From contig JAJPIV010000101.1 in the NCBI GenBank assembly GCA_021324595.1, positions 1-35,180 of the forward strand: a DNA stretch of 35,180 nucleotides, in the 5' to 3' direction. Under the pieces are notes generated by a model. That model ran no database searches. It saw only the letters and a program-made list of their open reading frames with translations, and had not been told where the DNA came from. The stretch's first letter is position 1, and every line of letters starts with the position of its first letter. The position numbers were made by a program, and so were the translations under genes. Below, piece after piece: positions 9,340-29,500 of the stretch. This DNA comes from Actinomycetota bacterium (GTDB lineage Bacteria > Actinomycetota > Actinomycetes > Streptosporangiales > Streptosporangiaceae).

Positions 9340-9368
9340 TTGCAAACCGGAGGGATCCTCCGTATAGT
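9340..9368 (+). promoter_or_regulatory. Promoter of the MFS efflux gene
   Basis: TTGCAA (9340-9345) and TATAGT (9363-9368) are separated by exactly 17 bp and point toward the MFS gene. The -10 matches consensus at five of six bases, the -35 at four of six. The first operator palindrome lies in the spacer. Transcription would start near 9375, inside the second palindrome. Confidence 0.6.
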
Positions 9369-9386
9369 TACCGGAGGGATCCTCCG
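9348..9386. promoter_or_regulatory. Tandem palindromic operators, probable TetR sites
   Basis: Two identical perfect inverted repeats, CGGAGGGATCCTCCG, lie at 9348-9362 and 9372-9386, with centres 24 bp apart. Each has 6-bp arms around GAT. The first fills the -35/-10 spacer of the MFS promoter and the second covers the predicted transcription start and may overlap the divergent TetR promoter. Position and symmetry fit sites for the adjacent TetR repressor. Binding is inferred. Confidence 0.7.
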
Positions 9387-9466
9387 AATACATCGTAGCC
9401 CGTCCAGGCGCCCGGGGCCACCCGGCCGTGCCGTACGCCCGCCTGACCGTTCCGGGAAGGAACCCA

Positions 9467-11590: not shown

Positions 11591-11627
11591 CACCGGCGGC
11601 CCGGCCGGGTCAGCGCGGCCCGCTGAC
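11577..11627. repeat. 15-bp direct repeat spanning two convergent stop codons
   Basis: GCGCGGCCCGCTGAC occurs at 11577-11591 and 11613-11627. The first copy contains the AraC-type stop codon. The second lies in the last codons of the minus-strand TrmB-type gene. Confidence 0.8.
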
Positions 11628-13370: not shown

Positions 13371-14341
13371 TGCTGCCCGCCCAGGCCGGCCGGCGTGCCC
13401 CGCGAGGGCTCCGCCGCCCGGGCGCCCGGGCGCCCGCCGTCGGCCCCGGCCGGGGCCCTGCGGTGCGGATCCGGGCCGACCGGGGCCGGGCGGGCGGGGG
13501 CGAGCCCGAGCACCCGCTCGGCATTGGCGTGGAACACCTTGTGCATGACCTCCTCGCTGAACCCGAGCTCGTCCCACTCCCGCAGGATGCGGTCGAGCGG
13601 CAGGCTGGGGTAGTCCGAGCCGAACATGATCTTGTCCTGCAGCCGGCCACGCACGTCCGTCCTCAGCCCGGCCGGGAAGTGCTTCGGCGCCCAGCCGGAC
13701 AGCTCCCAGTAGACGTTCCCCTTGTGCAGCGCGACGGCGGTCATCTCATCCACCCAGGGCCAGCCGGGATGCGCCGCGATCACGGTCAGCGTCGGGAACG
13801 CAGCGGCCAGCGCGTCGATCGCCTGCGGGTGGGCGTGCCGGATCAGCGCGCCGTCGCCGCCGGGCAGGCCGGCGCCCATGCCGGTGGTGCCGACGTCGAT
13901 CATCACCGGCACGCCGAGCCCGTCGATCGCCTCGAAGAGCGGCCTCAGCCCGGGGTCGTCCACCGAGTACCGCCCCATGATCGGGTGGAAGTGGAACCCG
14001 GTCACCTTGTGCTCGGCCACCGCCCGCTCGGCGGCGGCGATCGCCCGCTCGCCCAGCAGCGGGTCGACCGCCCCCCACGCGCCGATGAAGACGTCCGGGT
14101 GCCGGTCCCGCATCCCGGCCACGTACTCGCTGGTGCACGCCGGCGCGCCGGTCACCGACTGGATGTCGAAGGCCACCAGCAGCGCCTCGATGCCGTGGGC
14201 GCGGAAGTCCGCGGCCACCTCGTCCTCCGTCCTGGCCGTCCACTCCCGCTTCCAGTAACGGCCCAGCGCCTCCACGTAGGGTCCCTGCGATGCGATCCAC
14301 TCCGCGGTGCCGGGGTAGGCATGCAGGTCCACCCGTCTCAT
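13367..14341 (-). CDS. Amidohydrolase_2-family protein with altered metal-site residues
   Basis: 324 aa, ATG at 14341 overlapping the upstream ligase stop (ATGA). It has the TIM-barrel amidohydrolase_2 layout shared by ACMSD and gamma-resorcylate-type nonoxidative decarboxylases: the first strand VDLHAYPG (4-11), IAAHPGWPW (189-197) and FGSDYPSLP (240-248, metal Asp at D243). The N-terminal HxH pair is H7-A-Y9, so the second His is Tyr. The strand that normally carries the third His reads VMIDVG with D149. H191 and D243 remain. The protein may be metal-free, bind metal differently, or catalyse something other than decarboxylation or hydrolysis. It is co-transcribed with the aryl-acid adenylating enzyme and the SDR. 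Confidence 0.85.
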   Translation of the reverse strand: MRRVDLHAYPGTAEWIASQGPYVEALGRYWKREWTARTEDEVAADFRAHGIEALLVAFDIQSVTGAPACTSEYVAGMRDRHPDVFIGAWGAVDPLLGERAIAAAERAVAEHKVTGFHFHPIMGRYSVDDPGLRPLFEAIDGLGVPVMIDVGTTGMGAGLPGGDGALIRHAHPQAIDALAAAFPTLTVIAAHPGWPWVDEMTAVALHKGNVYWELSGWAPKHFPAGLRTDVRGRLQDKIMFGSDYPSLPLDRILREWDELGFSEEVMHKVFHANAERVLGLAPARPAPVGPDPHRRAPAGADGGRPGARAAEPSRGTPAGLGGQQ

Positions 14342-16053
14342 CCGACCTCCTGCGTCACGTCGTCCCGCCGCGCGGCGAGCCTGGCGGCCAGCTCCCGCTT
14401 GGCGACCTTGCCGACCGGGGACAGCGGGAAGCTGCCGACGATCTCGAGCCGCTCGGGGAGCTTGTGCCGGGCGATCTCCTGGGCCTTCAGGAACTCCACG
14501 AGGTCGCCGAGCGTCAGTCCGTGGCCCGGGCGCAGGATCACGCACGCGCACATCCGCTCGCCGAGGACGGGGTCGGGCACCGGCACGCAGGCCACGTTGA
14601 GCACGGCGGGGTGGGTGAGGATGAGGTTCTCCACCTCCTCGGCCGAGATCTTCTCGCCGCCCCGGTTGATCAGGTCCTTGCTCCGGCCCGCGACCACGTA
14701 GTTGCCGCTCGGGTGGCGCCACATCAGGTCGCCGGACCGGTAGAAGCCGTCCGGGGTGAACGCCCGCTGGTTGTGCTCGGGCGCGTTGTAGTAGCCCCGC
14801 AGGGTGTAGGGGCCGCGGGCGAGCAGCTCCCCGACCTCGCCGTCGGGGACGTCGGCGCCGTCCTCGCCGACCAGCCGCACCTCGTCGTCGGGGCAGACCG
14901 GCCGTCCCACGGTCTCCAGCCTGACCTCGGGCGGGTCGTCGAGCCGGACGAACATGAGCAGGCCCTCGGACATGCCGAAGTTCTCCTGGACGGTCACGTT
15001 GCGGAACACCTTCTCCGCCCGCCGCCGCGTCTCCGGCTGAAGCCGCTGGCCGCCGCTCTGGATGACCCGCACCGACCCGAGGTCGTGCCGGGCGGCCAGC
15101 GGGTCGTTGATCCAGCGGATCAGCAGCGCCGGCACCACGTGGATGTGGGTCACCCGGTGGCGGTCGATGACCGCGAACACGTCGGCCGCCCGGTTCGACC
15201 GGGCGAGGTAGACGGTCGCCCCGGACAGCAGGAACCCCTGCAGCCCCGGGCAGGCGAGCGGCAGGTTGTGCGAGATCGGCAGCACGTTGAGGAGCACGTC
15301 GCCGTCGCGCACGTCGCACACGGAGACGGCGAGCTTGGAGTTGAACGCGTAGTCGTTGTGGGTGCGCGGGATCAGCTTGGGGATGCCGGTCGTGCCCCCG
15401 GAGAGCTGGAAGACCGCCGGGTCGCAGGGGTCGATCCGCGCCGCGATCTGCTCCAGGTCGGCGGGGCCGTGACCGGTCGGCCTGCGCTCGTGCAGGTACT
15501 CAAGGCTCACCGTGCCCGCGCCGCCCGGCCCGGCCCGCCCGTCTTCGCCGGCCGGCGCCCCGCCGTCCCCGTCCGCCCCGGCCAGGATGCTCAGCCGCAG
15601 GTGGCCGTGCTCGGCGCGCAGCCTGCGGTGGAGCTCGGCGAAGTCGGCGTCGCCCAGCGACGCGGGCGCGGCTGCGGCCACGGCGCCGGACAGCGCCACG
15701 AACTGGCGCAGCTCCCGGTAGCGGTGCGAGGGCAGCGCCATGATGGGGATCGCGCCGATCCGCTGCAGCGCGAAGTACAGCGAGGCGAAGCGCCGCGTGT
15801 TCGGGAGCTGGAGCACGACCCGGTCGAGCGGGCGCAGGCCCAGGTCGAGCAGGTTGAGCGCGACGCGCTCGGAGGCCGCGGCGAGCTCGGCGTAGGTGTA
15901 GGAGCCCTCATCGTCGATGACCGCGACCCGGCCGGCGTGGTCGCGGAACGCGGCGAGGAAGTGGCTGATCAGCGGGCGGTCCTCCCAGTAGCCGCGGGCA
16001 CGGTAGCGCGCGGCGAACTCTTCCGGGAACGGGATCACCCCGGGCAGGGCCAT
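14338..16053 (-). CDS. Aryl-acid adenylating enzyme (AMP ligase), DhbE/EntE-like
   Basis: 571 aa; ATG at 16053 with GAGGTG about eight bases upstream. The N-terminal wording (RGYWEDRPL, QLPNTRRFASLYFALQRIGA, ALPSHRYREL) closely follows 2,3-dihydroxybenzoate-AMP ligases such as DhbE and EntE. Motifs: A3 LSGGTTGIPK (217-226), H232-N233 (the Asn that contacts the aryl hydroxyl/carboxylate in DhbE), A5 QENFGMSEGL, A8 NRGGEKISAEEVE, A10 PVGK with K549. It should activate a benzoate- or salicylate-type acid to an acyl-AMP and pass it to CoA or a carrier protein. No NRPS or carrier gene is nearby, so a catabolic aryl-CoA ligase is more likely than siderophore synthesis. A low-complexity insert lies at about 160-180. 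Its promoter region carries the shared palindrome. Confidence 0.88.
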   Translation of the reverse strand: MALPGVIPFPEEFAARYRARGYWEDRPLISHFLAAFRDHAGRVAVIDDEGSYTYAELAAASERVALNLLDLGLRPLDRVVLQLPNTRRFASLYFALQRIGAIPIMALPSHRYRELRQFVALSGAVAAAAPASLGDADFAELHRRLRAEHGHLRLSILAGADGDGGAPAGEDGRAGPGGAGTVSLEYLHERRPTGHGPADLEQIAARIDPCDPAVFQLSGGTTGIPKLIPRTHNDYAFNSKLAVSVCDVRDGDVLLNVLPISHNLPLACPGLQGFLLSGATVYLARSNRAADVFAVIDRHRVTHIHVVPALLIRWINDPLAARHDLGSVRVIQSGGQRLQPETRRRAEKVFRNVTVQENFGMSEGLLMFVRLDDPPEVRLETVGRPVCPDDEVRLVGEDGADVPDGEVGELLARGPYTLRGYYNAPEHNQRAFTPDGFYRSGDLMWRHPSGNYVVAGRSKDLINRGGEKISAEEVENLILTHPAVLNVACVPVPDPVLGERMCACVILRPGHGLTLGDLVEFLKAQEIARHKLPERLEIVGSFPLSPVGKVAKRELAARLAARRDDVTQEVG

Positions 16054-16073: not shown

Positions 16074-16089
16074 ACCTACCGCCGTAGGT
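16074..16089. promoter_or_regulatory. Operator-like inverted repeat upstream of the adenylating-enzyme gene
   Basis: ACCTACCGCCGTAGGT is a perfect 6-bp inverted repeat with a 4-bp spacer. It lies 20 bp upstream of the adenylating-enzyme ATG on the minus strand, in a 96-bp gap after the CocE-type gene. Possible -10-like TAGAGT lies about 10 bp further upstream. A near copy lies upstream of the first gene of the locus at 25595-25610. Confidence 0.6.
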
Positions 16090-16149
16090 GGGAACCACTC
16101 TACCCGGCTCACCGCGGCGCCCCGCCCGGCCGGGCCATGGCGCGGCCGG

Positions 16150-17904
16150 TCACGACGGCACCGCCTTCTGCCGGGCGATCTTGGCGGCGGGCACGGTCTG
16201 GGCGGCGGCCGACAGCACCCCGCCGGACAGGAACGTCCCGAGCACGTTCCCCCGGGTCACCGGGACGAGCAGGGCGGAAGGGTGCTCCTCGTCGTGATGC
16301 ACGGTCACCAGCGCGGCCGTCTGCCTGCTCACGTGACCGACCGCGGTGCCCCGCACCATGTCGGCCGGCGGCTCGTCCTCGTCGGACGCCTTGATCCGCA
16401 GGACCAGCCGGTCGCCCGGCCGGAGCAGGCAGGCGGCCGGGACGACCGGGATCAGGTACTCGCGCACCTGGCCCGGCGGGACCGGCTCGCGGCGGTCGTG
16501 CCGGTGGACGGGCAGCCAGGGGAGCGACTCGTCCTCCGCGAGGGCGGACTGGGAGGCGCGCAGCCAGCCCCGGGTCAGCTCCTCGGCGCGGCCCTGCGCG
16601 TCCTGCGCGAGGACGGTAACGAAGAACAGCGCGTCGGTGTCGGTGGTCGAGGCGTGCAGGCGCAGCACCATCGGGCCGATGATCTCGGTTGCCTCCACCA
16701 TCGGCGGGGTGCGGAAGACCGCCTCGCCGTGGCCGAACGGGGAGTCCTCGAACGACGTCGCCAGGTCCGAGGGCCAGGTGTCGTGCTCGCTGAGCAGCCC
16801 CCCGGAGTGCAGGAAGAACTCCGTCCACCGCGTCCGCGGCAGCGGCCAGGCCGCCGCCTCGGTCCACTCGCCGGTGCCGGGCACGAACAGCCGCACGGCC
16901 GGCTCGGCCAGGAACCCGGTGTCGTTGCCGGCCAGCCAGTGGTCGAACCAGCGCAGCGCTTCCAGGTGCATCTGGTAGAACGGCCGGTCCAGGTAGAGCG
17001 GCGGCCCGACGACCAGCTTGCGCGGGCCCTGCCAGCGCCCGAAGGTGCGGAACGCCGCGGGCAGGTGCAGGCCGTGCAGCCCCCAGCAGGCGCCGAAGTA
17101 GCCGGGTACCCCGGTGTTGCCGTAGCCGACCCTGCGCTCGGCGAAGAACTCGCCGTCCGTGCGGGCGAGCACGATGTCGGTGACGAGCGCGTTGGCCCCT
17201 CGCGGGTCACGCAGGCAGGCGACGATCGGGGGGAGCGCCGCGATCTCGTCGTCGTCCAGGGCCTGCCCGATCGCCTGCGCGAACCCGTGCTCGCCCAGGC
17301 GCCGCAGGTGCCAGCTCTCATAGCGCACGCCGTCGAACTTGTCCTTCCAGTGGGCGAGGAACCGCCAGGAGAAGATCCCGCCGTGGTAGAGGAAGTCCCG
17401 GTAGAAGTCGGTGGCCCCGAACGGGGCGAAGATCGCGGCCAGCGACGGCGGGGCGAGCATCGCGATCTGGATGGACAGCCAGGCGAAGTAGGAGATCCCG
17501 AACAATCCCGCCCGGCCCGTGCACCATGGCTGAGCGGCCAGCCATTCCAGCGCGTGCGCTCCGTCCGCGGCCTCGCCCGGGCCCATCGCCTGGAACGTGC
17601 CGGACGACTTGCCGGTGCCGCGCACGTTGAAGATGGCGTGCGCGTACCCGCGCCGCGCGAAGAAGTACGGGTCACCCGCCTCCAGCCAGCCGCGCTGGAC
17701 GCTGAAGCCCTCCGGCCGGATCGGCTGGGCCTGGAACTCGTTGTTGTACGGGTGGAAGCCCGCGATCACCGGCACCGGCTCGCTGGTGTCGGGGCGGAAC
17801 ACGTCGCCCACCAGCACCGCCCCGTCCGGCAGCGGGATCCGCACGTCGCGGTCGGCGATCACCCGGAACCGCCGCCGTGAGCACGCCCACTCTGGTCCGA
17901 ACAC
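16150..17904 (-). CDS. CocE/NonD-type alpha/beta-hydrolase (S15 family) without the usual Asp and His
   Basis: 584 aa from GTG 17904, which has GGGAGG eight bases upstream. The first ~320 residues are an alpha/beta-hydrolase of the CocE/NonD (X-Pro dipeptidyl-peptidase S15) type: FNVRGTGKSSG near 92-102, the nucleophile elbow FGISYF with S138, and ALRWFDHWLAGNDTG near 316-330. The rest is the jelly-roll domain that follows in this family (FLHSGG, VLRLHASTTDTDALF). Where CocE has GGWYD and GPWxH, this protein has GACWGLHG (271-278) and GPPLYLDR (300-307), so the catalytic Asp and His are not at their usual places. It may be a divergent esterase/amidase or non-hydrolytic. It follows the ThDP enzyme by 72 bp in the same direction. 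Confidence 0.85.
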   Translation of the reverse strand: MFGPEWACSRRRFRVIADRDVRIPLPDGAVLVGDVFRPDTSEPVPVIAGFHPYNNEFQAQPIRPEGFSVQRGWLEAGDPYFFARRGYAHAIFNVRGTGKSSGTFQAMGPGEAADGAHALEWLAAQPWCTGRAGLFGISYFAWLSIQIAMLAPPSLAAIFAPFGATDFYRDFLYHGGIFSWRFLAHWKDKFDGVRYESWHLRRLGEHGFAQAIGQALDDDEIAALPPIVACLRDPRGANALVTDIVLARTDGEFFAERRVGYGNTGVPGYFGACWGLHGLHLPAAFRTFGRWQGPRKLVVGPPLYLDRPFYQMHLEALRWFDHWLAGNDTGFLAEPAVRLFVPGTGEWTEAAAWPLPRTRWTEFFLHSGGLLSEHDTWPSDLATSFEDSPFGHGEAVFRTPPMVEATEIIGPMVLRLHASTTDTDALFFVTVLAQDAQGRAEELTRGWLRASQSALAEDESLPWLPVHRHDRREPVPPGQVREYLIPVVPAACLLRPGDRLVLRIKASDEDEPPADMVRGTAVGHVSRQTAALVTVHHDEEHPSALLVPVTRGNVLGTFLSGGVLSAAAQTVPAAKIARQKAVPS

Positions 17905-17976
17905 CGGCCATGCCTCCCTTCGCCGCTGCGAGATGGCCCGGCCCGCGCCGGGCGCTTGCCCCGCGCCGGGCGCCGC

Positions 17977-19659
17977 TCATGGCCGGACCTCGGCGACCGG
18001 CACGGCGATCACGTGCGTCCCCCCGGCCGTGAACGCCTCCGCGACCGCGGCGGCCACCTCCCCGGGCCGGCTCACCGTGGCCCCGGCCGCCCCGTAGCCG
18101 GCCGCGATGGCGGCGTGGTCGATCGCCGGCAGCCGGGTGCCGGGATGCTCCCTCGGATCGCGCGGCACGCCGAGGTGGGCCTCGATCGCCCGCTTGACCG
18201 CCAGGTAGCCGCCGTTGTCGAGCACGACCACGACCAGGTCGCACCGCTGCCGCACCGCGGTCCAGGTGGCCTGCACGCTGAACTGGTAGCTGCCGTCGCC
18301 GACCACGGCGAGGGCCGGCCGGTCCGGCCGGCCGATCGCGGCGCCGATCGCCGCGGGCACCCCCCAGCCCAGCCCGCCGCCGGTGCTGCGCAGCATCGGC
18401 TGGTCCTCGCCGAGCTCGAGGTGGCGCAGCAGCCGGGTGGAGGATCGCACGCCCTCGTCGACCACCGTCACCCGGGCCGGCAGGGCCGCGTTGAGCTCGG
18501 CGGCGACCGCCTCGACGGCCAGCGGCGCGCCCGGCCCGGCCCCGCCGGAGCGCTCGGCCAGCTTGGCCCGCTCCCGCGCCGCGCGGAGCGCGGCGAGCCG
18601 GCCCGCGCGGGCCGCCGCGGCGTCCGGGCTCAGGGCGCGGTCCAGGTGCGGGGCGAGGGCCGCCAGCGCCGCCGCGGGGTCTGCCACGATCCCCGCCACG
18701 GCGGGCACCTCCCGGCCCACCCGGTCGGGGTCGGGGTGGATGTGGATCAGCGAGGCGCCCTCCGGCAGGCGCGGATGGCGGGCCGAGGAGAACGGGTAGA
18801 ACACCCGGCTGCCGATCGCGAGCACGAGGTCGCACCCGTCCAGGACGGCGGGGTCCTCGCCGAGCAGGCCGAGGAAGCGGGGGTCGGCGGTGGGGAACGG
18901 CACGTCGCCCAGGTCGGTGAAGTCGGTCAGCAGCAGCGGCGCGGCCAGCCGGTCCGCGAGCTCCCGTAGCTGGCCGGCGCACCGGCGGGCCGCGCTGCCG
19001 GCCACGATCACCGGCCAGCGGGCCGCCGCGATCAGCCTGGCCGCAGCGGCGCAGGCCGCCTCACCCGGCACGGCGCCCCCGCGCGCCCAGCAGTCCCAGA
19101 GCGCGGTGTTGGCCAGCGGCGGCTCCGGCGCCCCCGCGGGCACCGGGCCGCGCAGCAGGTCCTCGGGAACGGCGAGGTAGGCCGGCCCGGTCGGCGGGCT
19201 CATCGCGGCGTGCAGCGCCCGCCACAGGTCGCGGCCGACCTCGCCGGGGCTGAGGGTCTGGTGCGCCCACTTGGTGAACGGCCTGACCGCCTCGGGCAGG
19301 TGCGGGTGGGCGCAGAACCCGTCCTCGCTGAGCACGGCCAGGTCCTTGTGGCCGGCGGTCACCACGACCGGCGAGCCGTCCTGGCGGGCGTTGTACAGGC
19401 CGCTGGCGCCGTTCAGCGTCCCCACGGTGGTGTGCAGGCCCGCGACCCCGGGCCGGCCGGTCACCCGGGCGTAGCCGTCGGCCATCGAGACGACCGCGCC
19501 CTCGTGCAGCCCGAGCACGTAGCGCAGCCCGGGCCGCGCGCGCAGCGCCTCGAGGAGGGCCGCCTCGGTGGAGCCGGGCAATCCGAAGAAGGTGTCCACC
19601 CCGGCGGCGGCGAGCACGTCGGCGAACAGGTCGGCGCCGGTGCGAGTCGGGTCGGTCAC
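17977..19659 (-). CDS. ThDP-dependent enzyme, benzoylformate decarboxylase-like
   Basis: 560 aa from GTG 19659, overlapping the LivF stop as GTGA. Three-domain ThDP fold: the PYR domain has LPGS (S30), cofactor-activating E53 in GLHEGAVVSMADGYAR, and H76 in AGLHTTVGTLNG. The PP domain has GDG 454-456 and N482 for Mg-ThDP. The S30 and H76 positions and surrounding wording match MdlC (Ser26 and His70). The second active-site His of MdlC (His281) aligns by eye with F290. It likely decarboxylates or ligates an aromatic or branched 2-oxo acid to an aldehyde. An acetolactate-synthase-like or oxalyl-CoA-type activity cannot be excluded. It is fused by overlap to the transporter operon. Confidence 0.85.
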   Translation of the reverse strand: MTDPTRTGADLFADVLAAAGVDTFFGLPGSTEAALLEALRARPGLRYVLGLHEGAVVSMADGYARVTGRPGVAGLHTTVGTLNGASGLYNARQDGSPVVVTAGHKDLAVLSEDGFCAHPHLPEAVRPFTKWAHQTLSPGEVGRDLWRALHAAMSPPTGPAYLAVPEDLLRGPVPAGAPEPPLANTALWDCWARGGAVPGEAACAAAARLIAAARWPVIVAGSAARRCAGQLRELADRLAAPLLLTDFTDLGDVPFPTADPRFLGLLGEDPAVLDGCDLVLAIGSRVFYPFSSARHPRLPEGASLIHIHPDPDRVGREVPAVAGIVADPAAALAALAPHLDRALSPDAAAARAGRLAALRAARERAKLAERSGGAGPGAPLAVEAVAAELNAALPARVTVVDEGVRSSTRLLRHLELGEDQPMLRSTGGGLGWGVPAAIGAAIGRPDRPALAVVGDGSYQFSVQATWTAVRQRCDLVVVVLDNGGYLAVKRAIEAHLGVPRDPREHPGTRLPAIDHAAIAAGYGAAGATVSRPGEVAAAVAEAFTAGGTHVIAVPVAEVRP

Positions 19660-20504
19660 GCCTGCGCCGCTCCCTTCTCCGGCACCCGGCCGCCGAGGAA
19701 GATCTCGGCCATCTCCGGGCTGGCGAGCACCTCGCCGGCCGGGGCCGACATCGCCACCCGCCCCTGGACCAGGACCGCCGCCGTGTCGGCGAGCCGCAGT
19801 GCCGCCCGCGCCTTCTGCTCGACGAGCAGGACCGCGTGGCCGTGGTCGGCGAGGGCCCGGACCTGCTCGGTGAGCACGGCATCGGTCAGCTCCGCCGACA
19901 GCCCGGCGGTCGGCTCGTCGAGGATCAGCACCCGGGGCGCCAGCATGAGCGCCCGCGCGATCGCGGTCATCTTCCGCTCGCCGCCGCTCATCGTCCCGAC
20001 GTAACGGTGAAGCTTGTCCCGCAGCGGCGGGAAGATCGCCAGCACCTGCTCGGCCCGCTCGGCGCGCTGCGCCTTGCCGAGGAGGTAGCCGCCCATCGCG
20101 AGGTTCTCGCTGACCCGGAGCGAATCGAACACGTCGTCGGTCTGCGGCACGTAGCCGATGCCCAGGCGCGCCAGGCGGTCGAGCCGCCAGCCGCTGATCT
20201 CCCGCCCGTCGGCGAGCACCCGGCCGCCCATGACCCGCGCCAGGCCGAGGATCGCCTTGAGCAGCGTGCTCTTGCCCGCGCCGTTGGGGCCGACCACGGC
20301 GACCAGCTGGCCGGCGTGGACCTGCAGGTCCACGCCGCGGATGACCTCGACGTCGCCGTAGCCGGCCACCAGGCCCTCGGTGGCCAGGGCCGGGGCGGAC
20401 GGCGCGGCGGGCTGCCCGGAGCCCGCCGGCTGCCCGGGGGCGGTGCCGGCTCGCGCGGGGGCGGCCCGGGCCGGCCATGGCCGGGCGTCCTCAGCCGACG
20501 ACAT
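19656..20504 (-). CDS. ABC transporter ATP-binding protein, LivF type
   Basis: 282 aa; ATG at 20504 overlaps the end of the LivM-LivG fusion by 14 bp. A 40-residue Ala/Pro/Gly-rich N-terminal extension precedes the ATPase core. Walker A is GPNGAGKST, the signature is MSGGERK, Walker B is RVLILDEP, and the LivF-type SENLAMGGYLLG Q-loop region follows DDVFDSLRV. It pairs with the LivG domain to energise import through the LivH/LivM-type permease. The family is usually called branched-chain amino acid transport but includes many importers of aromatic acids, amides and urea. Location in the cytoplasm at the membrane. Confidence 0.93.
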   Translation of the reverse strand: MSSAEDARPWPARAAPARAGTAPGQPAGSGQPAAPSAPALATEGLVAGYGDVEVIRGVDLQVHAGQLVAVVGPNGAGKSTLLKAILGLARVMGGRVLADGREISGWRLDRLARLGIGYVPQTDDVFDSLRVSENLAMGGYLLGKAQRAERAEQVLAIFPPLRDKLHRYVGTMSGGERKMTAIARALMLAPRVLILDEPTAGLSAELTDAVLTEQVRALADHGHAVLLVEQKARAALRLADTAAVLVQGRVAMSAPAGEVLASPEMAEIFLGGRVPEKGAAQA

Positions 20505-22317
20505 AGGCGTCCTGCACCTCCTTCCTGGTGCGCAGCTCGGCCATCCGGCCCTGGGAGATCACCGTGCCCTGGGCCATGACCACCACCTTGGCGCACAGCC
20601 GCTCGACCGCGCGCAGCTCGTGCTCGACCAGGAGGATGGACAGGCCCGCGCCGGCCAGCGCCAGGCACGCCTCCTCCAGCTGCTCGGCGAGCGCCGGGGC
20701 GAGGCCGGCCATCGGCTCGTCGAGCAGCAGCAGGCGGGGCTGCGCCATCAGCGCGCGCATGACCTCCAGCAGGCGCTTCTGCCCGCCCGACAGGCGCCCG
20801 GCGCGCTCGTCCCGCTTGCCGGCCATGCCGAACAGCGTCAGCAGGGCCGTCGCCCGCTCCACCAGTTCCTCCTCCTGGCGCCGCCACAGCCACCGGCCAG
20901 CGAGCACGCCCGCGGCCGATTCCCCGCGCTGGCGGGGCGCGGCGACGAGCAGGTTCTCGATCGTGGTGAGCGCCCCGAACTCGCGCGGAAGCTGGAAGAT
21001 CCGCACGATGCCCAGGCGGGCCCGGCGGTGGGCGGGCAGCGCGGTGACGTCGCGGCCCTCGACGCGGACGCGCCCGCCATCCGGCCGCAGGAAGCCGCTG
21101 ATCAGGGCCAGCGCGGTGGACTTGCCGGCGCCGTTGGGGCCGATCAGCCCGGTGATCTCGCCTGGCTCGGCCTCGAAGGTCGCGCCGTCCACCGCGCGCA
21201 CCCCGCCGAACCGCTTGACCAGGCCCTCCACGGAGAGCGCGGCGGGGCGCCCGGATGCGGCGGCGCCGGCTGCCTTCGGCGCGGCGGCCGGCCGGGGCAG
21301 CGCGATCAGCGCGGCGACGGTGCTGGCCGGCCGGGCGCCGCCCGGCGGCGCCTGCGCCGCGTCCTGGCCGGCGGGCGCGTGCCGCGGCCTGCGCTCGGCG
21401 ACCAGGCCCTGCGGCCGGGCGAACACGAACGCGATCGTGAGCAGGCCGAGCACGATCCAGCCGAGGTCGCTGGCCAGCTCGGGGGAGCTCTGGAACTGCG
21501 GCAGGAACTGGGCGCCCTGCAGGATCAGCACGGGGACGATGACGACCCCCACTGCCACGCCCGCGTCGTTGCCGATGCCGCCCACGATGATGGCGGTGAG
21601 CAGCGCCAGGGTCTCGACGTACTCCCACGACGACGGGGACCAGCCCCCGATGAAGCCCGCCAGGAGCGCGCCGCTGAGGCCGGCGTACGCGCCGCCGGCC
21701 GCCTGGACCGCCAGGCGCAGGCCGACGACGTTCTTGCCGACCGCGGTGGCCGCGTCCTCGTCCTCCCGCATCGCCCGCAGCGCTCGCCCGAGCGGCCCGC
21801 CGGTGAACCGGCGCAGGGCGAGCCAGCCGGCCAGGCAGGCGGCCGCGACCAGCGCCACGTACCACCAGCCGCGGCTGGCATCGCCGAGCGAGGCCAGGGG
21901 GTTGGGGATCAGGCTGAGCCCGAGGTTGCCGTTGAACAGCCCGGAGTCGGCTCCCACGACCGTCGTCGCGAGGATCGAGATGACCAGCATCACCATCGCC
22001 TGGTAGTCGGCGCGCAGCCGCTTGAGGCCGGTGACGCCGATCAGGCAGCCGAGCGCGCCGCAGATGAGCGCGGCCAGGATGATGGCCAGGGCCACCGGGA
22101 GCCTGGCGCCGATGATGTACTGCTGGAACGACCCGGAGGCGGCCGGCGGGCCGAGCGTGAACGCCGCGTACAGGTACGCCCTGGCGGCGACCAGCACGAT
22201 GTAGGCGAAGTTGGCCACCCCGGCGACGCCGAACTCGAGGTTCAGGCCCCAGGCCGCGAGCAGGTCGGTGCCCAGGTAGACCAGCAGCACCACGGCGTAG
22301 TAGGCGACGGAGCTGAT
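20491..22317 (-). CDS. LivM-LivG fusion: ABC permease joined to ATP-binding domain
   Basis: 608 aa. Residues 1-300 are a LivM-type permease with 8-10 helices (WGLNLEFGVAGVANFAYI, RAMREDEDAATAVGKN EAA-like loop, IIVGGIGNDAG). A Pro/Ala linker (about 310-358) joins a LivG ATPase with Walker A GPNGAGKST (393-401), signature RLSGGQKRLLEV and LLLLDEPMAGLAP. The start is unusual: a perfect AGGAGG is followed six bases later by ATC at 22317, with no ATG, GTG or TTG in the window expected. The next in-frame GTG (22293) lacks a ribosome site and would remove part of TM1. A CTG overlapping the LivH stop (22341) is another option. The fusion is known in other actinobacteria. Confidence 0.85.
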   Translation of the reverse strand: MSSVAYYAVVLLVYLGTDLLAAWGLNLEFGVAGVANFAYIVLVAARAYLYAAFTLGPPAASGSFQQYIIGARLPVALAIILAALICGALGCLIGVTGLKRLRADYQAMVMLVISILATTVVGADSGLFNGNLGLSLIPNPLASLGDASRGWWYVALVAAACLAGWLALRRFTGGPLGRALRAMREDEDAATAVGKNVVGLRLAVQAAGGAYAGLSGALLAGFIGGWSPSSWEYVETLALLTAIIVGGIGNDAGVAVGVVIVPVLILQGAQFLPQFQSSPELASDLGWIVLGLLTIAFVFARPQGLVAERRPRHAPAGQDAAQAPPGGARPASTVAALIALPRPAAAPKAAGAAASGRPAALSVEGLVKRFGGVRAVDGATFEAEPGEITGLIGPNGAGKSTALALISGFLRPDGGRVRVEGRDVTALPAHRRARLGIVRIFQLPREFGALTTIENLLVAAPRQRGESAAGVLAGRWLWRRQEEELVERATALLTLFGMAGKRDERAGRLSGGQKRLLEVMRALMAQPRLLLLDEPMAGLAPALAEQLEEACLALAGAGLSILLVEHELRAVERLCAKVVVMAQGTVISQGRMAELRTRKEVQDAYVVG

Positions 22318-22337
22318 GGCGGTCCTCCTTCCGCGGC

Positions 22338-23228
22338 TCAGGCCCGGGTCAGCCGCCGCGCCGCCGCCCCCGAGGCGAACAGGCCGCGCGGCCGGAGCAT
22401 CAGCACCAGCACCAGGACCGCGAACGCGTAGGCGTCCTGGTAGGCGGGGCTGGTGTAGGCGGCGGCCACCTGGCTCACCACGCCGACCACCAGGCCGCCG
22501 AGCATGGCGCCGTAGGGCTGCCCGATGCCGCCGAGGACGGCCGCGGCGATCATGTAGATGAGGAACGTCGGGCCGATCGTGAAGTCGAAGGTCACCGTGC
22601 TGATCGCCAGGGCGACCCCGGCCGCGCCGCACAGCGCCCCGGTGATCAGCCAGGCCAGGTCGGTGACCCGGTCGGTCCGGATCCCGCAGCTGCGGGCCAC
22701 CACCGGGTTCGCCGAGGTCGCCCGCATCGCCCGGCCGAGCTGGGTCCTGGTGAGCAGCAGGTGCAGCGCGAGCATCACCGCCACGGTGATCGCGATGATG
22801 ACCAGCTGCGAGGTGGTGAACACGAACCCGGCGCCGCTCACCGTGCTCCCGGCCTGCTGGCCGTAGGAGATCGTGTCCGCCCCGGCGATCGCGACGATGC
22901 AGTACTGGATGATGATCCCGGCCGAGACCGTGACGATGACCACGCCGACGAACCCGGTGCCGCGCCGGACGAGCGGGGCGATCAGCCCCCGGTTCAGCAG
23001 CGCCGAGGCGATGGCGATCGCCGCCGCGGCGACCGCCATCGCGACCCAGACGTTCACCCCGGCGCCGAGCAGCGCGTAGCCGAGGTAGGCGGCGAGCGTC
23101 ATCAGCGCGCCGTAGGTGATGTTCAGCACGTTGCTGATGCCGAACTGCACGGTGAAGCCGACCGCGCCGAGCGCGATGATCGCGCCCGAGGCGATGCCGA
23201 ATCCCAGCGACTCGATCAGGAGCCTCAT
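22338..23228 (-). CDS. ABC transporter permease, LivH type
   Basis: 296 aa, ATG at 23228 overlapping the solute-binding-protein stop by ATGA. Eight or so hydrophobic helices; typical LivH wording at the N-terminus (LGAVGFTVQFGISNVLNITYGALM) split over TM1-2, the loop GRAMRATSANPVVARSCGI is the cytoplasmic EAA-like ATPase-contact region, and LGGIGQPYGAMLGGLVVG follows near the C-terminus. It forms the import channel together with the LivM domain. All transporter parts are present in order, so the importer is complete. Confidence 0.93.
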   Translation of the reverse strand: MRLLIESLGFGIASGAIIALGAVGFTVQFGISNVLNITYGALMTLAAYLGYALLGAGVNVWVAMAVAAAAIAIASALLNRGLIAPLVRRGTGFVGVVIVTVSAGIIIQYCIVAIAGADTISYGQQAGSTVSGAGFVFTTSQLVIIAITVAVMLALHLLLTRTQLGRAMRATSANPVVARSCGIRTDRVTDLAWLITGALCGAAGVALAISTVTFDFTIGPTFLIYMIAAAVLGGIGQPYGAMLGGLVVGVVSQVAAAYTSPAYQDAYAFAVLVLVLMLRPRGLFASGAAARRLTRA

Positions 23229-24547
23229 GACAGAAGCTGCTGGACGGTGGTGCCCGGGATCACGCCGAGCAGCACCGGGTTGCCGCTCGCGGTGAACCCG
23301 GAGGCCGAGAAGTTGCCGGGCGAGTTGTGGAAGGCGTTGAAGTGGATCGGCCCGCCCACGCCCACGTAGTGGATCTTCTTGCCGGCCTTGAGCGCGGCGA
23401 GCCCGGCCGCGTAGGAGTCGACCGTCACCGCGCCGGGCGCGCCCGCGGCGATCGCGGCGATGTCCTTGTTGTAGACCGGCCCGCTCGTGCTGTGCGCCTG
23501 GACCATCGCCAGCGCCATCAGGCTGATCCCGTCGTAGATCGAGGCGATCACGCCGACCCCGAGGATCGTGGCCGGGTCCTTGACCTGCGAGGCGCTGTAG
23601 ACCGCGTGCTTGTACAGGGCGTAGGCCTGGCTGGAGGGGTTCACGTACCCGCCGATGAAGAACATGTCGTGGGTGACGTAGCTGGTTCCCATCACCTTGC
23701 GCACCGCGGAGAAGTAGGCGGGGGTGATCGAGTCCGTGGAGGTGATCACCGGCGGCACCTTGCCGCCGGAGAGCTGGCGGTACTCGGACAGGAACGTCGC
23801 CGAGGTCTGCGGGTCGCCGGCCAGGATCAGGGCCTGCGGCCGGCCGGCCAGCACCCTGGCGACCACGCTGGAGTAGGAGGAGGCGTCGCCGGGGATCGTG
23901 AGGTTGGCGGTCATCGTCCCGCCGATCTTCCGCACCGCGGCGACCACCCCGGGCTCGTTCCCCTGGGCTCCGATGTTGTTCTGGAACACCACCGCGTACC
24001 GCTTGTAGCCCTTGCGCGCCGCCCAGGCCACGAACGCGGCGCCGTTCTGGTCGTCCGACGGGGTCATCCGCCAGAAGTAGGCGTCCCGGGTGGTGTCGAA
24101 GGCGACCAGGCCGTTGGTCGACACCATCGGGATCTTGGCGGCGTTGACCAGCGGGATCGTGGTCGCCGCCGTGTTCGACTCCAGCCCGACCGCCATGCTC
24201 AGCGTCGTCGTGGCCAGGGCCTTGCTGACGTTGGGCACCGCGTCGGCCGGGTCGCCGGTGTCGTCGATGAGGTCGCAGCTGATCTTGCGGCCGAGCACGC
24301 CGCCGGCCTGGTTCACGCTGTACTGCGCCGCGTAGCAGGCGCCCGACATCAGGTTCCCGATCTCGGCCGCCGGGCCGGTCATCGGCCCGATCACCCCCAC
24401 GTTCAGCGGCCCGGACGGCGGGGCGCCCGTGCCGCCGCCGCTGGAGCCGCCGCACGCGGCCAGGGGGAGCGCGGCCGCGAGCGCGCCCGCGAGCAGCAGG
24501 GCGCCGGCCGGGCGGGGCCGGGGCAGGGTGAGGTTCGTCGTTCTCAT
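23225..24547 (-). CDS. Lipoprotein solute-binding protein of a Liv-type ABC importer
   Basis: 440 aa, ATG at 24547 overlapping the upstream amidohydrolase stop by ATGA. The signal peptide ends in the lipobox LPLAAC with the lipidated Cys at residue 32, followed by a GGSSGGG linker. The mature protein is a type I periplasmic-binding (Peripla_BP_6) fold: VGVIGPMTGPAAEIGN, DDTGDPADAV, AVGLESNTAATTIP, WRMTPSDDQNGAA. The family binds branched-chain amino acids, amides, urea or aromatic acids. The neighbouring aryl-acid enzymes make an aromatic ligand plausible. It is anchored outside the cell and delivers ligand to LivH/LivM. Confidence 0.93.
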   Translation of the reverse strand: MRTTNLTLPRPRPAGALLLAGALAAALPLAACGGSSGGGTGAPPSGPLNVGVIGPMTGPAAEIGNLMSGACYAAQYSVNQAGGVLGRKISCDLIDDTGDPADAVPNVSKALATTTLSMAVGLESNTAATTIPLVNAAKIPMVSTNGLVAFDTTRDAYFWRMTPSDDQNGAAFVAWAARKGYKRYAVVFQNNIGAQGNEPGVVAAVRKIGGTMTANLTIPGDASSYSSVVARVLAGRPQALILAGDPQTSATFLSEYRQLSGGKVPPVITSTDSITPAYFSAVRKVMGTSYVTHDMFFIGGYVNPSSQAYALYKHAVYSASQVKDPATILGVGVIASIYDGISLMALAMVQAHSTSGPVYNKDIAAIAAGAPGAVTVDSYAAGLAALKAGKKIHYVGVGGPIHFNAFHNSPGNFSASGFTASGNPVLLGVIPGTTVQQLLS

Positions 24548-25545
24548 TGCTGGTCATCCTTCGGCGAGTGCGGCAGTTGGAGGATGCGGTGCAGGTTCCC
24601 GCCGAGTACGAGGTCGAGGTCGGCCCGGGGCAGGCCGAGGGAGCGGATCGTGCCGAGCACCTCCACCGGCCAGTCCTCGCCGTCGCTGGGCCCCATCGGG
24701 AAGTCGGTGCCGTACATGACCCGTCCGGCGCCGAAGAAGTCCAGGCCGCAGCGCATGGCGCTGGCCGAGCCGTTGACCATCGAGTCGTTGTAGAACTTGC
24801 GGAAGTACTCCGACGGCTTGCCGGGCAGCGCGGCGGAGGCGTCGGTGAGGGACGCGGCCCGGTACTTGGCGATCTCCTGGCTCATCGCGTCGGCGCGGCT
24901 GGCGTAGAACGGGACCATGCCGCCGAGGTGGTGGGTGACGAACATCAGGTCCGGGTAGCGCCCCAGCACGCCGCCGAAGACCAGGCGCGCCATCGCGAGC
25001 GTGGTCTCGAACGGCCAGCCGAACAGCCGGTCGAGCAGGTCCTTCTTCAGCCACTCGTAGGAGTGGCCGTGCTGGGGGTGGATCCAGATCGGCACCGCCC
25101 GGCGCGCCGCTTCCTCGTACAGCGGCCACATCGAGGCGTCGTCGAGCGGCAGGCCCTCGATGTTGGAGAAGATCAGCACCCCGCGGACGCCGAGCTCGCC
25201 GGTCAGCCGGGCGAACTCGGCCATCATCTCGTCGTCTACCACGGGCAGGACGCCGACCGGGATGAACCGGTCCGGCCAGCGCGCCGCCATCTCCGCGATG
25301 CTCTCGTTGGCGACCCTGGTCAGCTCGTGGACCAGCGGCCGGGGCATGCCGAGCCACATCGGCGGCCGCACCAGGACCAGGACCTGCTGGTCCACGCCGA
25401 TCCGGTCCATGTACCGGAGCCTGCGCTCGCCGTCGTACAGGTAGCTGTTCTTGCGCAGCGCGGCGACCTCGGCGCCGGGGTGCCGTTCGCTGATCGCGTC
25501 GAGCAGCCGTTCCGGGCAGACGTGCGAGTACGCGTCGACGATCAT
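24544..25545 (-). CDS. Amidohydrolase_2-family protein (ACMSD-like), first gene of the locus
   Basis: 333 aa; ATG at 25545 with a G-rich ribosome site (GGGGGG) five bases upstream. TIM-barrel amidohydrolase_2 protein: DAYSHVCP (4-11), IHPQHGH (155-161), VTHHLGG (203-209), MYGTDFPMG (277-285, metal Asp D281). Compared with ACMSD-type decarboxylases, the first His of the HxH pair is Tyr6, while H8, H156 and D281 remain, so a metal could still be held. Family members include nonoxidative decarboxylases of aromatic acids and lactonases. It heads the operon, directly before the transporter genes, and its promoter region carries the shared palindrome. Confidence 0.88.
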   Translation of the reverse strand: MIVDAYSHVCPERLLDAISERHPGAEVAALRKNSYLYDGERRLRYMDRIGVDQQVLVLVRPPMWLGMPRPLVHELTRVANESIAEMAARWPDRFIPVGVLPVVDDEMMAEFARLTGELGVRGVLIFSNIEGLPLDDASMWPLYEEAARRAVPIWIHPQHGHSYEWLKKDLLDRLFGWPFETTLAMARLVFGGVLGRYPDLMFVTHHLGGMVPFYASRADAMSQEIAKYRAASLTDASAALPGKPSEYFRKFYNDSMVNGSASAMRCGLDFFGAGRVMYGTDFPMGPSDGEDWPVEVLGTIRSLGLPRADLDLVLGGNLHRILQLPHSPKDDQQ

Positions 25546-25594
25546 GGAACCCCCCAACGGGTCCGGGCGCTGCCCGCGTCGGCGGATGTGTGCC

Positions 25595-25610
25595 ACCTAC
25601 CGGAGTAGTG
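25595..25610. promoter_or_regulatory. Operator-like inverted repeat upstream of the transporter operon
   Basis: ACCTACCGGAGTAGTG contains CTAC-CGGA-GTAG and matches the palindrome at 16074-16089 at 12 of 16 positions (shared ACCTACCG left part and GTAG right part). It sits 50 bp before the first gene of the locus, next to a locally AT-rich tract (AGCAAAATGTAA) unusual for this DNA. The intergenic region 25546-25783 is shared with the divergent B3/B4 gene, so the site could act on both. Confidence 0.6.
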
Positions 25611-25783
25611 AGCAAAATGTAACGTGCGCCATGGGGCGGCGCAAGAGCTCCCGGGGCGCCTGCGCCCGGGCCGGGCGGGCCGCGGGGAGCCCCCGGGGAG
25701 CGGGCGGGGGCGTGCGGGAGAATGTCCCCGGCGATCGTGCGGCCGCGGGCCTGGCGCCCGGGGGCGAAGGAGAGGGCAGCACC

Positions 25784-26509
25784 GTGGACACCCCGCTGGA
25801 TGAATGGCTGGCGCGCGCCTGGGTGGACCGGGCCGTCTGGGACCTGCGGCCCGATTACCGCGCCGCCCTGGTCGCCGCCGACCACCTGGTCGGCGGCCCG
25901 GGCGACGAGGTGAGCGAGAAGCTGCTCTGCGGGGCGATCGCCGCGGCGCGCGAGCGGCTCGCCGGGCGGAGCCCGGACGAGCTGCCGCACGTGCGGGCCT
26001 GGCAGGAGGCGTACCGGGCGTTCGGCGCCAAGCCGCAGCGGACCCGGCCGAGCGTCGATGCGCTGCTGCGCCGGATCGAGGCGGGGATCCCGCGGATCGA
26101 CCGGCTGACCGACGCCTACAACGCGATCTCGATCAGCCACCTGCTGCCGGCCGGGGGGGAGGACCTCGCCGCCTACGCCGGGCCGATCCGGCTGGTCCGC
26201 GCCGACGGGACCGAGGACTTCGACACGGTCGCCTCCGGCGCGCCGGCCGTCGAGCACCCGGCGCCCGGCGAGGTCGTCTGGCGGGACGATCTCGGGGTGA
26301 CCTGCCGGCGCTGGAACTGGCGGCAATGCGCGCGCACCCGGCTCACCGCGCGGAGCACCAGCGCGGTGTTCGTGCTCGACGGGCTCGCCCCGGTGACGGC
26401 GCGGCAGCTGTCCGCCGCGGCCCGCGACCTGGCCGCCGCGCTGATGCTGCTGTGCCCGCAGGCGCGGGTCGCGAGCCGGCTGCTCGCCCCGCCCGGCGCC
26501 GGGGAGTAG
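25784..26509 (+). CDS. B3/B4 tRNA-binding-domain protein
   Basis: 241 aa; GTG at 25784 preceded by GAAGGAGAGG. It resembles COG3382-type proteins built on the B3/B4 domain of the phenylalanyl-tRNA synthetase beta subunit: FGAKPQRTRPSVDALLRRI, YNAISISHLLPAGGEDL, and a C-terminal strand-rich segment with WNWRQCARTRL. In PheT this domain edits mischarged tRNA; in free-standing homologues an amino-acid or aminoacyl-tRNA hydrolysing role is suggested but not proven. The oxoprolinase-like gene starts 7 bp downstream, so the two are probably one transcript. It is divergent from the catabolic locus. Confidence 0.82.
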   Translation: MDTPLDEWLARAWVDRAVWDLRPDYRAALVAADHLVGGPGDEVSEKLLCGAIAAARERLAGRSPDELPHVRAWQEAYRAFGAKPQRTRPSVDALLRRIEAGIPRIDRLTDAYNAISISHLLPAGGEDLAAYAGPIRLVRADGTEDFDTVASGAPAVEHPAPGEVVWRDDLGVTCRRWNWRQCARTRLTARSTSAVFVLDGLAPVTARQLSAAARDLAAALMLLCPQARVASRLLAPPGAGE

Positions 26510-26516
26510 CCAGCCG

Positions 26517-29500
26517 ATGGCCGGCCAGGAGGGGGGAACGGGCCGCTGGGAGTTCTGGATCGACCGCGGCGGCACGTTCACCGACGTGGTCGCCCGGCGC
26601 CCGGACGGCACGCTCGCGGTGCACAAGCTGCTCTCGCAGGACCCGGCCAGGTACGCCGACGCGGCGGTGGCCGGCATCCGGCACCTGCTGGGCGTCCGGC
26701 CGGGGCAGCCCCTGCCCGCCGACGAGATCGCGGTGGTCAGGCTCGGCACGACGGTCGCCACCAACGCTCTGCTCGAGCGCACGGGCGAGCCGACCGCGCT
26801 CGTCATCACCGCCGGGTTCGCGGACGCGCTGCTCATCGGCTACCAGGACCGGCCGGGGATCTTCGACCTGCGGATCGCCCGCCCGCCGGTGCTCTACGAC
26901 CGCGTGATCGAGGTCACCGAGCGGGTGGGCGCCGGCGGCGAGGTGCTCGTGCCGCTCGACGAGGACGCGGCCGAGCGCGACCTGCGCGCGGCGTTCGCCG
27001 ACGGGCTGCGCAGCGTGGCGGTCGTCTGCCTGCACGGCTACCGCCACCCGGCCCACGAGCGGCGGATCGGCGAGATCGCGCGGCGCGCCGGGTTCACCCA
27101 GGTCTCCCTCTCCCATGCCACCAGCCCGCTGATGAAGCTGGTCTCGCGGGGCGACACGACGCTGGTGGACGCCTACCTGTCCCCGGTCATCGCCCGGTAC
27201 GTGGATCAGGTCGCCCGCGAGCTCGGCGGGGCGCGGCTGCAGTTCATGCAGTCCAACGGGGGGCTCACCGACGCGCGCCTGTTCCGCGGCAAGGACGCGA
27301 TCCTGTCCGGCCCCGCGGGCGGGATCGTCGGCATGGCCCGCACCGCCCAGGCGGCCGGGTTCGGCCGGGTGATCGGCTTCGACATGGGCGGGACCTCCAC
27401 CGACGTGTCCCACTTCGCCGGGGAGCTGGAGCGGCAGTACGAGACCGAGGTCGCCGGGGTGCGGATCCGCGCGCCGATGCTGTCGATCCACACGGTCGCC
27501 GCGGGCGGCGGATCGGTCCTGCACTTCGACGGCGGCCGGTACCGGGTCGGGCCGGACTCCGCCGGAGCCGACCCAGGCCCGGCCTGCTACCGCCGCGGCG
27601 GGCCGCTCACCCTCACCGACGCGAACGTGCTGCTCGGCCGGATCCAGCCGGCGTGCTTCCCCGCCGTGTTCGGCCCCGGCGGCGACCAGCCGATCGACGC
27701 GCGGGTCGTCGCGGACGGGTTCGCCGCGCTGGCGGCGCGGATCGGCGCGGCGACCGGGGAGATGCCGGAGCCCGAGCAGGTGGCGGCCGGGTTCCGCTCC
27801 GTCGCCGTGGAGAACATGGCGAACGCGATCAAGAAGATCTCCGTCCAGCGCGGCTACGACGTGACCCGGTACGCGCTCGCCACGTTCGGCGGGGCGGGCG
27901 GGCAGCACGCCTGCGCGGTGGCCGACGCGCTCGGGATCACGACGGTGCTCATCCATCCGCTGGCCGGGGTGCTGTCCGCGTACGGCATCGGCCTGGCCGA
28001 CGTGACCGCGATGCGCGAACGGGCGGTGGAGGCGCGGCTGGACGCCGGGCTGGTGCCCGAGCTCGCCCGGCTCGCCGGGGAGCTGGCCGACGACGCCGCC
28101 GCCGAGCTCGCGCGGGAGGGCGCGGACCCGTCCCGGGCGGTCGTCACGCGGCGGGCGCACCTGAAGTACGAGGGGACCGACACCGCGCTGCCGGTCCGGC
28201 TCGGCCCGCTTGCCGAGATGACCGCCGCGTTCGAGCGCGCCTACCGGCGGCACTTCTCGTTCCTCATGCCCGGCAAGGCGATCGTCGCCGAGGCGGTCTC
28301 GGCCGAGGTCGCGGTTCCCTCCGCCGTGCCCGCCCCGCCCGGGGCGGTCTCCCCCGCCGTGCCCGCCCCGCCCGGGGCGGTCTCCCCCGCCGTGCCCGCC
28401 CCGCCCGCGCAGGCCGGCCGGGGCGTTCTGGTCCCCCTGTTCGCCGACGGCGCGTGGCGCCAGGCGCCGCTCGTCCGGCGCGGCGAGCTGACCCCCGGCC
28501 GGCGGCTCGCCGGCCCGGCGATCATCGCGGAGGACCTGGCCACCACCGTGGTCGAGCCCGGCTGGCAGGCCAGCCTGGCCGGCAGCGGCGACCTGCTGCT
28601 CACCAGGGTGAGCGCGCCGCCCGCCCGGCGCGCCGCGGGCAGCGGGGCGGGGACCGCGGCGGACCCGGTGATGCTGGAGATCTTCGGCAACCTGTTCATG
28701 TCGGTGGCCGAGCAGATGGGGGCGCGGCTGCGGGCCACCGCGCACTCGGTGAACATCAAGGAGCGCCTCGACTTCTCCTGCGCGGTCTTCGACTCGCAGG
28801 GCGGGCTGATCGCGAACGCGCCGCACATCCCGGTCCACCTGGGCTCGATGGGCGAGTCGATCAAAATCGTCGCCCGGCGCAACGCCGGGCGGATGCGCCC
28901 CGGCGATGTGTACGCGCTCAACGACCCCTACCACGGCGGCACCCACCTGCCGGACGTGACCGTGGTGACGCCGGTGTTCGGCGAGGGGCCGGGCGAGTCC
29001 GGGCGGGTGCTGTTCTACGTGGCCTCCCGCGGGCACCACGCCGAGATCGGGGGGATCACGCCCGGGTCGATGCCGGCGTTCAGCACCCGGGTGGAGCAGG
29101 AGGGGGTGCTGATCGACAACTGGCTGCTCGTGCGGGACGGGCGGCTGCGCGAGGCGGAGACGCTCGCGCTGCTGCGGGGCGCGCCGCACCCGTCCCGCAA
29201 CCCCGAGGTCAACCTCGCGGACCTGCGCGCCCAGGTGGCCGCGAACGAGCGCGGGGTCGCCGAGCTGCGGAAGATGTGCGGCCACTTCGGGCTGGACGTG
29301 GTCACCGCCTACATGGGGCACGTGCAGGCCAACGCCGAGGAGGCGGTCCGGCGGGTGATCGGCGGGCTGCGCGACGGCGAGTTCGCCTACGAGACCGACA
29401 GCGGGGCGGTGATCCGCGTCGCCGTGCGCGTCGATCGGGCCTCCCGCGGCGCCGTGATCGACTTCACCGGGACGTCGCCGCAGTCGCCGGGGAACCTGAA

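Follow-up and report, generated by a model that had tools for sequence, protein, structure and literature searches.

The 35,180-nucleotide stretch of DNA analysed here (the window; contig JAJPIV010000101.1 of assembly GCA_021324595.1, from an Actinomycetota bacterium of the Streptosporangiaceae) carries a minus-strand run of genes for an amidohydrolase (AH1), a substrate-binding protein, LivH, a LivM-LivG fusion, LivF, a thiamine-diphosphate (TPP) enzyme and a CocE-type hydrolase. After a gap of 96 bp, the run continues with an aryl-acid AMP-ligase, a second amidohydrolase (AH2), an SDR-family oxidoreductase and, as its last gene, a TrmB-type regulator (Table 1). Site A (ACCTACCGCCGTAGGT) is a perfect inverted repeat that lies within the 96-bp gap between the CocE-type and AMP-ligase genes, with 20 bp separating it from the AMP-ligase ATG. 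Site B (ACCTACCGGAGTAGTG) ends 49 bp before the ATG of AH1 and has two mismatches to ACCTACN4GTAGGT. Common to both sites is ACCTACCG-N2-GTAG. Judging from the comparisons presented below, we consider it very probable that the TrmB-type protein, whose gene closes the locus, has both palindromes as its operators.

An earlier note, made from the letters of this DNA alone, had described the two palindromes. The sequences, coordinates and common core with identical spacing that it reported are correct, as is its distance of 20 bp for site A, and its 50 bp for site B is 49 bp by our measurement. The note had also seen no third copy of the shared palindrome in the window, which our scans bear out: the 12-base form ACCTACCGNNGTAG is exact at sites A and B only, and the third of three rows found at up to two mismatches is site A on the opposite strand. 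At least three such rows were obtained in 9 of 100 shuffled windows. A looser search of the window for ACCTACN4GTAGGT at up to three mismatches gave six matches compared to 3.5 expected, which is not significant.

Table 1. Features of the locus, in window coordinates
Feature	Coordinates	Strand	Remarks
TrmB-type regulator	11610..12503	-	PF01978; predicted winged helix and PLD-like domain (AF2 model); last locus gene; proposed binder
SDR-family oxidoreductase	12570..13373	-	start approximate
Amidohydrolase_2 (AH2)	13367..14296	-	
Aryl-acid AMP-ligase	14338..16053	-	best match among solved structures: salicylate-AMP ligase 5wm2; first gene behind operator A
Operator A (site A)	16074..16089	-	perfect 6-bp inverted repeat ACCTAC-CGCC-GTAGGT between CocE-type and AMP-ligase genes
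Candidate -10 element TAGAGT	16097..16102	-	7 bp before operator A; read by eye
CocE/NonD-type hydrolase	16150..17904	-	ends upstream module
TPP enzyme	17977..19662	-	best matches benzoylformate decarboxylases
LivF-, fused LivM-LivG- and LivH-type ABC transporter subunits	19656..23225	-	
ABC transporter substrate-binding protein	23225..24547	-	
Amidohydrolase_2 (AH1)	24544..25545	-	ACMSD / 5-carboxyvanillate decarboxylase type; first gene behind operator B
Operator B (site B)	25595..25610	-	CACTAC-TCCG-GTAGGT, before first transporter-operon gene, in divergent region common to B3/4 and HyuAB genes
Candidate operon B promoter TTGCGC-N17-TACATT	25616..25644	-	5 bp before operator B; read by eye
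Divergent B3/4-domain gene (25784-26509) and fused hydantoinase A/B gene (26517-30224)	25784..30224	+	

The genome to which the window belongs comprises 4,086,512 bases (96.9% complete). Throughout it, ACCTACCGNNGTAG is exact at sites A and B only, with two one-mismatch places elsewhere. The consensus drawn from relatives, MCTACN4GTAGGT (that is, (A/C)CTAC-N4-GTAGGT), is likewise exact at these two sites and reveals no further ones. When ACCTACN4GTAGGT is used, a search at up to one mismatch recovers site A and C9:100533 only, and a search at up to two mismatches returns 43 places that include site B. What stands out is that the two exact copies, the only ones in the genome, both lie before genes of the same locus.

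Genomes of the same family provide the background against which these sites can be viewed. In 24 genomes without a TrmB match, there are eight consensus sites in approximately 160 Mb, corresponding to about 0.2 per genome of the size of our own. The six TrmB carriers hold ten sites in approximately 36 Mb (both totals are sums of the listed genome sizes), and eight of the ten are inside the clusters discussed below; two carriers, G006 and G033 (genomes, contigs and loci are cited by our G, C and L labels), have no exact-consensus site. Over carriers and non-carriers together, ten consensus sites fall outside the clusters, and we inspected six of these (G004:C146, G010:C1, G027:C1, G029:C61, G017:C376 and G074:C42). 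No homologues of window genes were found near them at E <= 1e-8, except for weak matches to LivF/LivMG-type ATPases (29-33% identity) at G017:C376, and these six sites are treated as background.

A TrmB match (E <= 1e-25) is present in 6 of 150 family genomes, our own included. Among 60 genomes, again with our own, an AMP-ligase of at least 60% identity occurs in G000, G006, G017 and G033, all of which carry TrmB; the G033 matches are two contig-end fragments. In G017, a perfect copy of the palindrome (ACCTACCGCGGTAGGT) stands directly before the AMP-ligase gene (63% identical) on contig C79, behind an MFS-type gene and in another gene context, and a copy with one mismatch precedes the SDR gene on C197. 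Likewise, a one-mismatch copy lies immediately before TrmB in G006:C142. The contig G104:C127 carries copies before the AMP-ligase, the transporter, TrmB, a second transporter operon and AH2, with 0-2 mismatches to ACCTACN4GTAGGT. The modules that the window joins thus form separate units in G017 and G104, with copies of their own. A further copy heads the transporter operon in G074:C138. On this contig, AH1 has shrunk to a remnant of approximately 56 residues (L064:4421-4588), and the promoter and operator are retained.

To look beyond the family, we searched genome contigs with an alignment of six TrmB orthologues and obtained 63 loci. Four distant loci (L139-L142), none of which has a core site, were left out of the blind scan and of the counts of core sites and open reading frame (ORF) positions. 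Merging near-identical loci among the remaining 59 gave 41 clusters (45 when L139-L142 are included). The core form (A/C)CTAC-N4-GTAG(G/T), which was chosen after seeing the relatives, is found at 47 sites in the 59 loci (1.03 Mb) compared to approximately 2.5 expected from base composition, and 11 permuted half-sites yield 0-10 sites each in the same loci. The figure of 47 is an unmerged count, and taking one locus per cluster leaves 34 sites in 41 loci. Core sites are present in 26 of the 41 clusters, and none is inside a homologue of a window gene. Furthermore, 39 of the 47 sites are at most 300 bp 5' of, or just inside, crude ORF starts, a zone that makes up 25% of the sequence.

When 3,840 four-base dyads with spacers of 0-14 were scanned blindly in the 200 bp upstream of TrmB, CTAC-N4-GTAG ranked first and was present in 16 of 41 clusters. 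The 100 dinucleotide shuffles gave this dyad a mean of 0.06 clusters and a maximum of one, and the best of any dyad reached at most eight. The window-derived half-site ACCTAC-N4 was found at up to two mismatches in 13 of 28 held-out clusters, compared to a mean of 1.0 for the other 59 half-sites. The sister half-site CACTAC, which we regard as the second variant of one consensus, also scored 13 of 28, and the two share the lead among the 60 permutations. Counted from the listing, the 21 upstream rows of this held-out test represent 16 distinct sites, because divergent regions were counted twice, and two of the sites, before CocE-type genes in L104 and L106, are unconvincing. A spacer of 4 was recovered in 13 of 34 clusters, and every other spacer from 0 to 12 in at most five.

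Outside the Actinomycetota, the dyad keeps its place next to the regulator and its neighbors vary. Loci from Paraburkholderia, Hyphomicrobiales and Saccharibacter have the dyad, mostly as ACTAC-N4-GTAGT, before TrmB, with a RidA-type gene divergent from TrmB in the Paraburkholderia locus L130, the only one of these loci for which neighbouring genes were annotated. In the Calditrichia locus L121, the dyad precedes TrmB, which is followed by citrate-synthase and MmgE/PrpD genes. No core site was found in 22 loci of AMP-ligase paralogues that lack a nearby TrmB. On this comparison of sequences, the common factor of the dyad-bearing loci is the regulator, not the pathway.

Some loci depart from a single dyad. 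In Burkholderia-type loci, it flanks TrmB on both sides (L130 at 8267, 9443 and 9465; L132 at 9925, 9949, 11070 and 11094; L133 at 9914 and 10949). Dyads also come in pairs spaced by 22-24 bp in L130, L132 and L134 (9927 and 9951), an arrangement that could make binding cooperative. Another variation is the replacement of CTAC/GTAG by CAAC/GTTG, on both sides in L089:9055 and on one side in L096:9956.

The earlier note had named the TrmB-type protein as the natural candidate binder, and it had called for a search of the genome and relatives because a motif scattered at random would count against its proposal. That search found exact copies at A and B only and eight sites in the 24 genomes without a TrmB match, and it did not refute the proposal. 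The blind scan upstream of TrmB and the retention of the dyad beside unrelated genes lend comparative support to this protein, and from them we infer that it binds the sites. The note had further proposed a two-promoter regulon with an internal, separately controlled branch. The copies before modules in G017:C79, G104:C127 and G074:C138 speak for this arrangement. However, the modules are also joined in G074, which lacks a core site between the CocE and AMP-ligase genes; therefore, the internal branch is not universal.

Additional observations weigh against TrmB control through these sites, or against parts of it. A control pattern, the motif read backwards, is as frequent as the motif or commoner genome-wide (17/18 versus 3/2 in the ACCTACCGNNGTAG scan and 2/2 versus 1/2 in the MCTACN4GTAGGT scan). 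Since the control is no rarer, the genome-wide count alone says little. Among relatives, G033 has no copy at up to one mismatch, its cluster being split over contigs of approximately 3 kb, and the second AMP-ligase copy of G006 has three-mismatch variants only. Exact cores are absent from the fetched stretch in 15 of the 41 clusters, some of which have one- or two-mismatch variants and some of which are short contigs, and the window TrmB gene itself has no exact core directly upstream. At up to one mismatch, CACTAC beats ACCTAC in the held-out regions (9 versus 7 of 28). With five-base halves and a wider upstream set, two GC-rich dyads (9 of 33 clusters) outrank CTACC-N6 (7 of 33), a lead that we take to be probably compositional. 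Four of the 47 core sites are deep inside crude ORF calls. Finally, scanning found no sigma-70-like promoter at site A or B, and it placed a terminator-like hairpin across the promoter proposed for operon B.

The window TrmB has the N-terminal winged helix of PF01978 at residues 13-77 (E 4.7e-19; 68.4 bits, cut-off 25.6). The segment TG[IV]PQPKVYE, which is identical across the six TrmB orthologues, is the putative recognition-helix region as read from the TrmB family. There is no match to PF11495, the TrmB C-terminal effector domain, and the scores against NCBIfam models are 30.4 bits for the archaeal sugar-sensing TrmB (NF040851; cut-off 600) and 44.3 bits for the haloarchaeal TrmB (cut-off 500). 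An AlphaFold2 (AF2) model (pLDDT 88.8, pTM 0.58) has a winged helix, a linker helix, a PLD-like domain and a long C-terminal helix. Residues 113-246 of the model match the TrmB effector domain 2f5t_X over its residues 110-239 only (Z 14.8, root-mean-square deviation [rmsd] 2.3, 123 residues). Because 2f5t is unmatched beyond residue 239, sugar sensing should not be assumed. The best full-length Foldseek match is TrmBL2 (5bqt; E 6.2e-13), with a TM-score of 0.34 and an rmsd of 21, and thus the domains are arranged differently.

Systems described previously offer both likenesses and differences. Archaeal operators are given as TACT-N3-AGTA, TATCAC-N5-GTGATA and TACT-N7-8-GAGTA (PMC4158304), and a 19-bp partly palindromic motif is given for Haloarcula TrmB (PMC10817205). 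The TrmB proteins of Pyrococcus furiosus and Thermococcus litoralis resemble the window case in their PF01978 winged helix, PLD-like effector part, palindromic operator at a promoter, control of an ABC transporter operon and half-sites that share TAC...GTA. However, CTAC-N4-GTAG of the window branch does not follow their TACT-N3-AGTA in sequence or spacing, and the window TrmB differs in lacking PF11495, in falling far below the NCBIfam cut-offs, in its bacterial promoters and in a pathway predicted to act on acids instead of sugars. Halobacterium TrmB (TACT-N7-8-GAGTA) and TrmBL1/Tgr (TATCAC-N5-GTGATA) are also family regulators with palindromic operators, and autoregulation has been described or proposed for some, but they have other half-sites and spacings and wide sugar/gluconeogenesis regulons as opposed to one local pathway. 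The chromatin-type protein TrmBL2 (5bqt) occupies coding as well as intergenic DNA, whereas the window TrmB would be tied to one short palindrome. In Deinococcus geothermalis, disruption of dgeo_1985R, a putative TrmB-family regulator reported to act as a repressor, causes overexpression of a cystine importer (PMC8533066). This protein is bacterial and represses an importer, as is proposed for the window TrmB. No operator for a bacterial TrmB-type regulator was found in the open-access literature searched, with subscription journals mostly outside its scope.

In the mechanism that we propose, each half-site of (A/C)CTAC-N4-GTAG(G/T) would be contacted by one winged helix of a TrmB dimer. The promoter elements listed in Table 1 recur in relatives, where we read by eye TAGAGT 9 bp before the palindrome of the G104 AMP-ligase copy and TTGCGC-N18-TACATT 4 bp before that of the G074 copy. 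Given the negative promoter scans at both sites, the -10 and -35 elements named here rest on this reading by eye. Both operators would lie just downstream of a plausible -10 element and around the start of transcription, where bound TrmB would block initiation, which suits repression. Operator A would control AMP-ligase-AH2-SDR-TrmB, and, with TrmB the last gene of this operon, the regulator would limit its own level by autoregulation. Operator B would control AH1, the ABC transporter, the TPP enzyme and the CocE hydrolase, and the divergent B3/4 and hydantoinase genes are possibly co-regulated through it. TrmB would come off the DNA when its PLD-like domain binds an effector, most likely the imported aryl or cyclic carboxylic acid or else an AMP/CoA-activated intermediate, and uptake and breakdown would be switched on together.

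TrmB might instead activate transcription from sites A and B, or combine activation with repression as some archaeal TrmBs do; repressors, activators and dual regulators are all known among the archaeal proteins (PMC4158304). We judge this improbable, since the window operators are downstream of the candidate -10 elements and near the expected (unmapped) start, which favours blocking, and the only bacterial case met in the literature, dgeo_1985R, behaves as a repressor.

The palindromes could also be operators of another regulator, TetR-like, MarR-like or unlinked, with TrmB merely accompanying the pathway. Operators of the TetR/MarR type, too, are typically short palindromes of similar size, and the window includes genes of the TetR type (8665-9321) and, in short form, of the AraC type (11201-11590). 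However, the dyad tracks TrmB across phyla beside unrelated neighbours, and we hold a regulator other than TrmB to be unlikely. The window TetR in particular is disfavoured as the binder, because a different tandem palindrome, and neither A nor B, is found in its own divergent intergenic region. There, ACCGGAGGGATCCTCCG occurs at 9346-9366 and 9370-9390, 24 bp apart, between the divergent TetR and MFS transporter genes, and this pair, unrelated to the CTAC dyad, may serve as the TetR operator. A chance likeness between two unrelated inverted repeats in a GC-rich genome can draw on the non-significant loose motif in the window and on the backwards control, but it is hardly credible given just two exact copies across 4.09 Mb that each precede a gene of the same locus, the conservation of sequence and position in other species, and the outcomes of the genome scans, held-out half-site test, blind dyad scan and 59-locus count.

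If TrmB is the regulator, the genes under its control give some indication of what it senses. The gene content suggests an aryl or cyclic carboxylic acid as the type of substrate and inducer, because the locus combines a salicylate-type AMP-ligase, an ACMSD-type decarboxylase, a benzoylformate-decarboxylase-like enzyme and a LIV-type transporter, and because thiolase and enoyl-CoA hydratase genes are neighbours elsewhere (both near the Streptomyces locus, the thiolase gene near the Microbacterium locus). An attempt to name the pathway from the best matches of the AMP-ligase, AH1 and TPP enzyme did not succeed, and no papers on this gene combination were found in the open-access literature searched. 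The LivM-type permease and LivG-type ATPase are fused in a single reading frame (window 20491-22347). In G074:C138, a molybdenum-hydroxylase (xanthine dehydrogenase-type) gene is located between CocE and AMP-ligase (L061:5267-7567), and G033:C937 has a fragment of this gene (L053:837-1193) in the corresponding position between CocE and AMP-ligase, with 64% identity over 119 residues. This enzyme may supply a step missing from the window cluster.

The new element here would be a bacterial TrmB regulator-operator pair whose operator is distinct from the archaeal ones. Within this branch of the family, (A/C)CTAC-N4-GTAG(G/T) is found upstream of the regulator or of target genes. We lean toward the broader view that TrmB proteins of one branch in Actinomycetota, Dormibacterota, Chloroflexota, Calditrichota and alpha-/beta-Proteobacteria read this single operator whatever the local pathway, with TAC...GTA half-sites shared with archaeal TrmB. 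If this is true, the motif predicts regulons of a regulator family that is little described in bacteria. TrmB regulators are described mainly from archaea, and a defined operator offers a DNA target that can be tested quickly. In this uncharacterised cluster, the operator would make a single regulated unit of the genes for the AMP-ligase, the transporter, the decarboxylase-like enzymes and perhaps the hydantoinase, and this would aid the search for the substrate.

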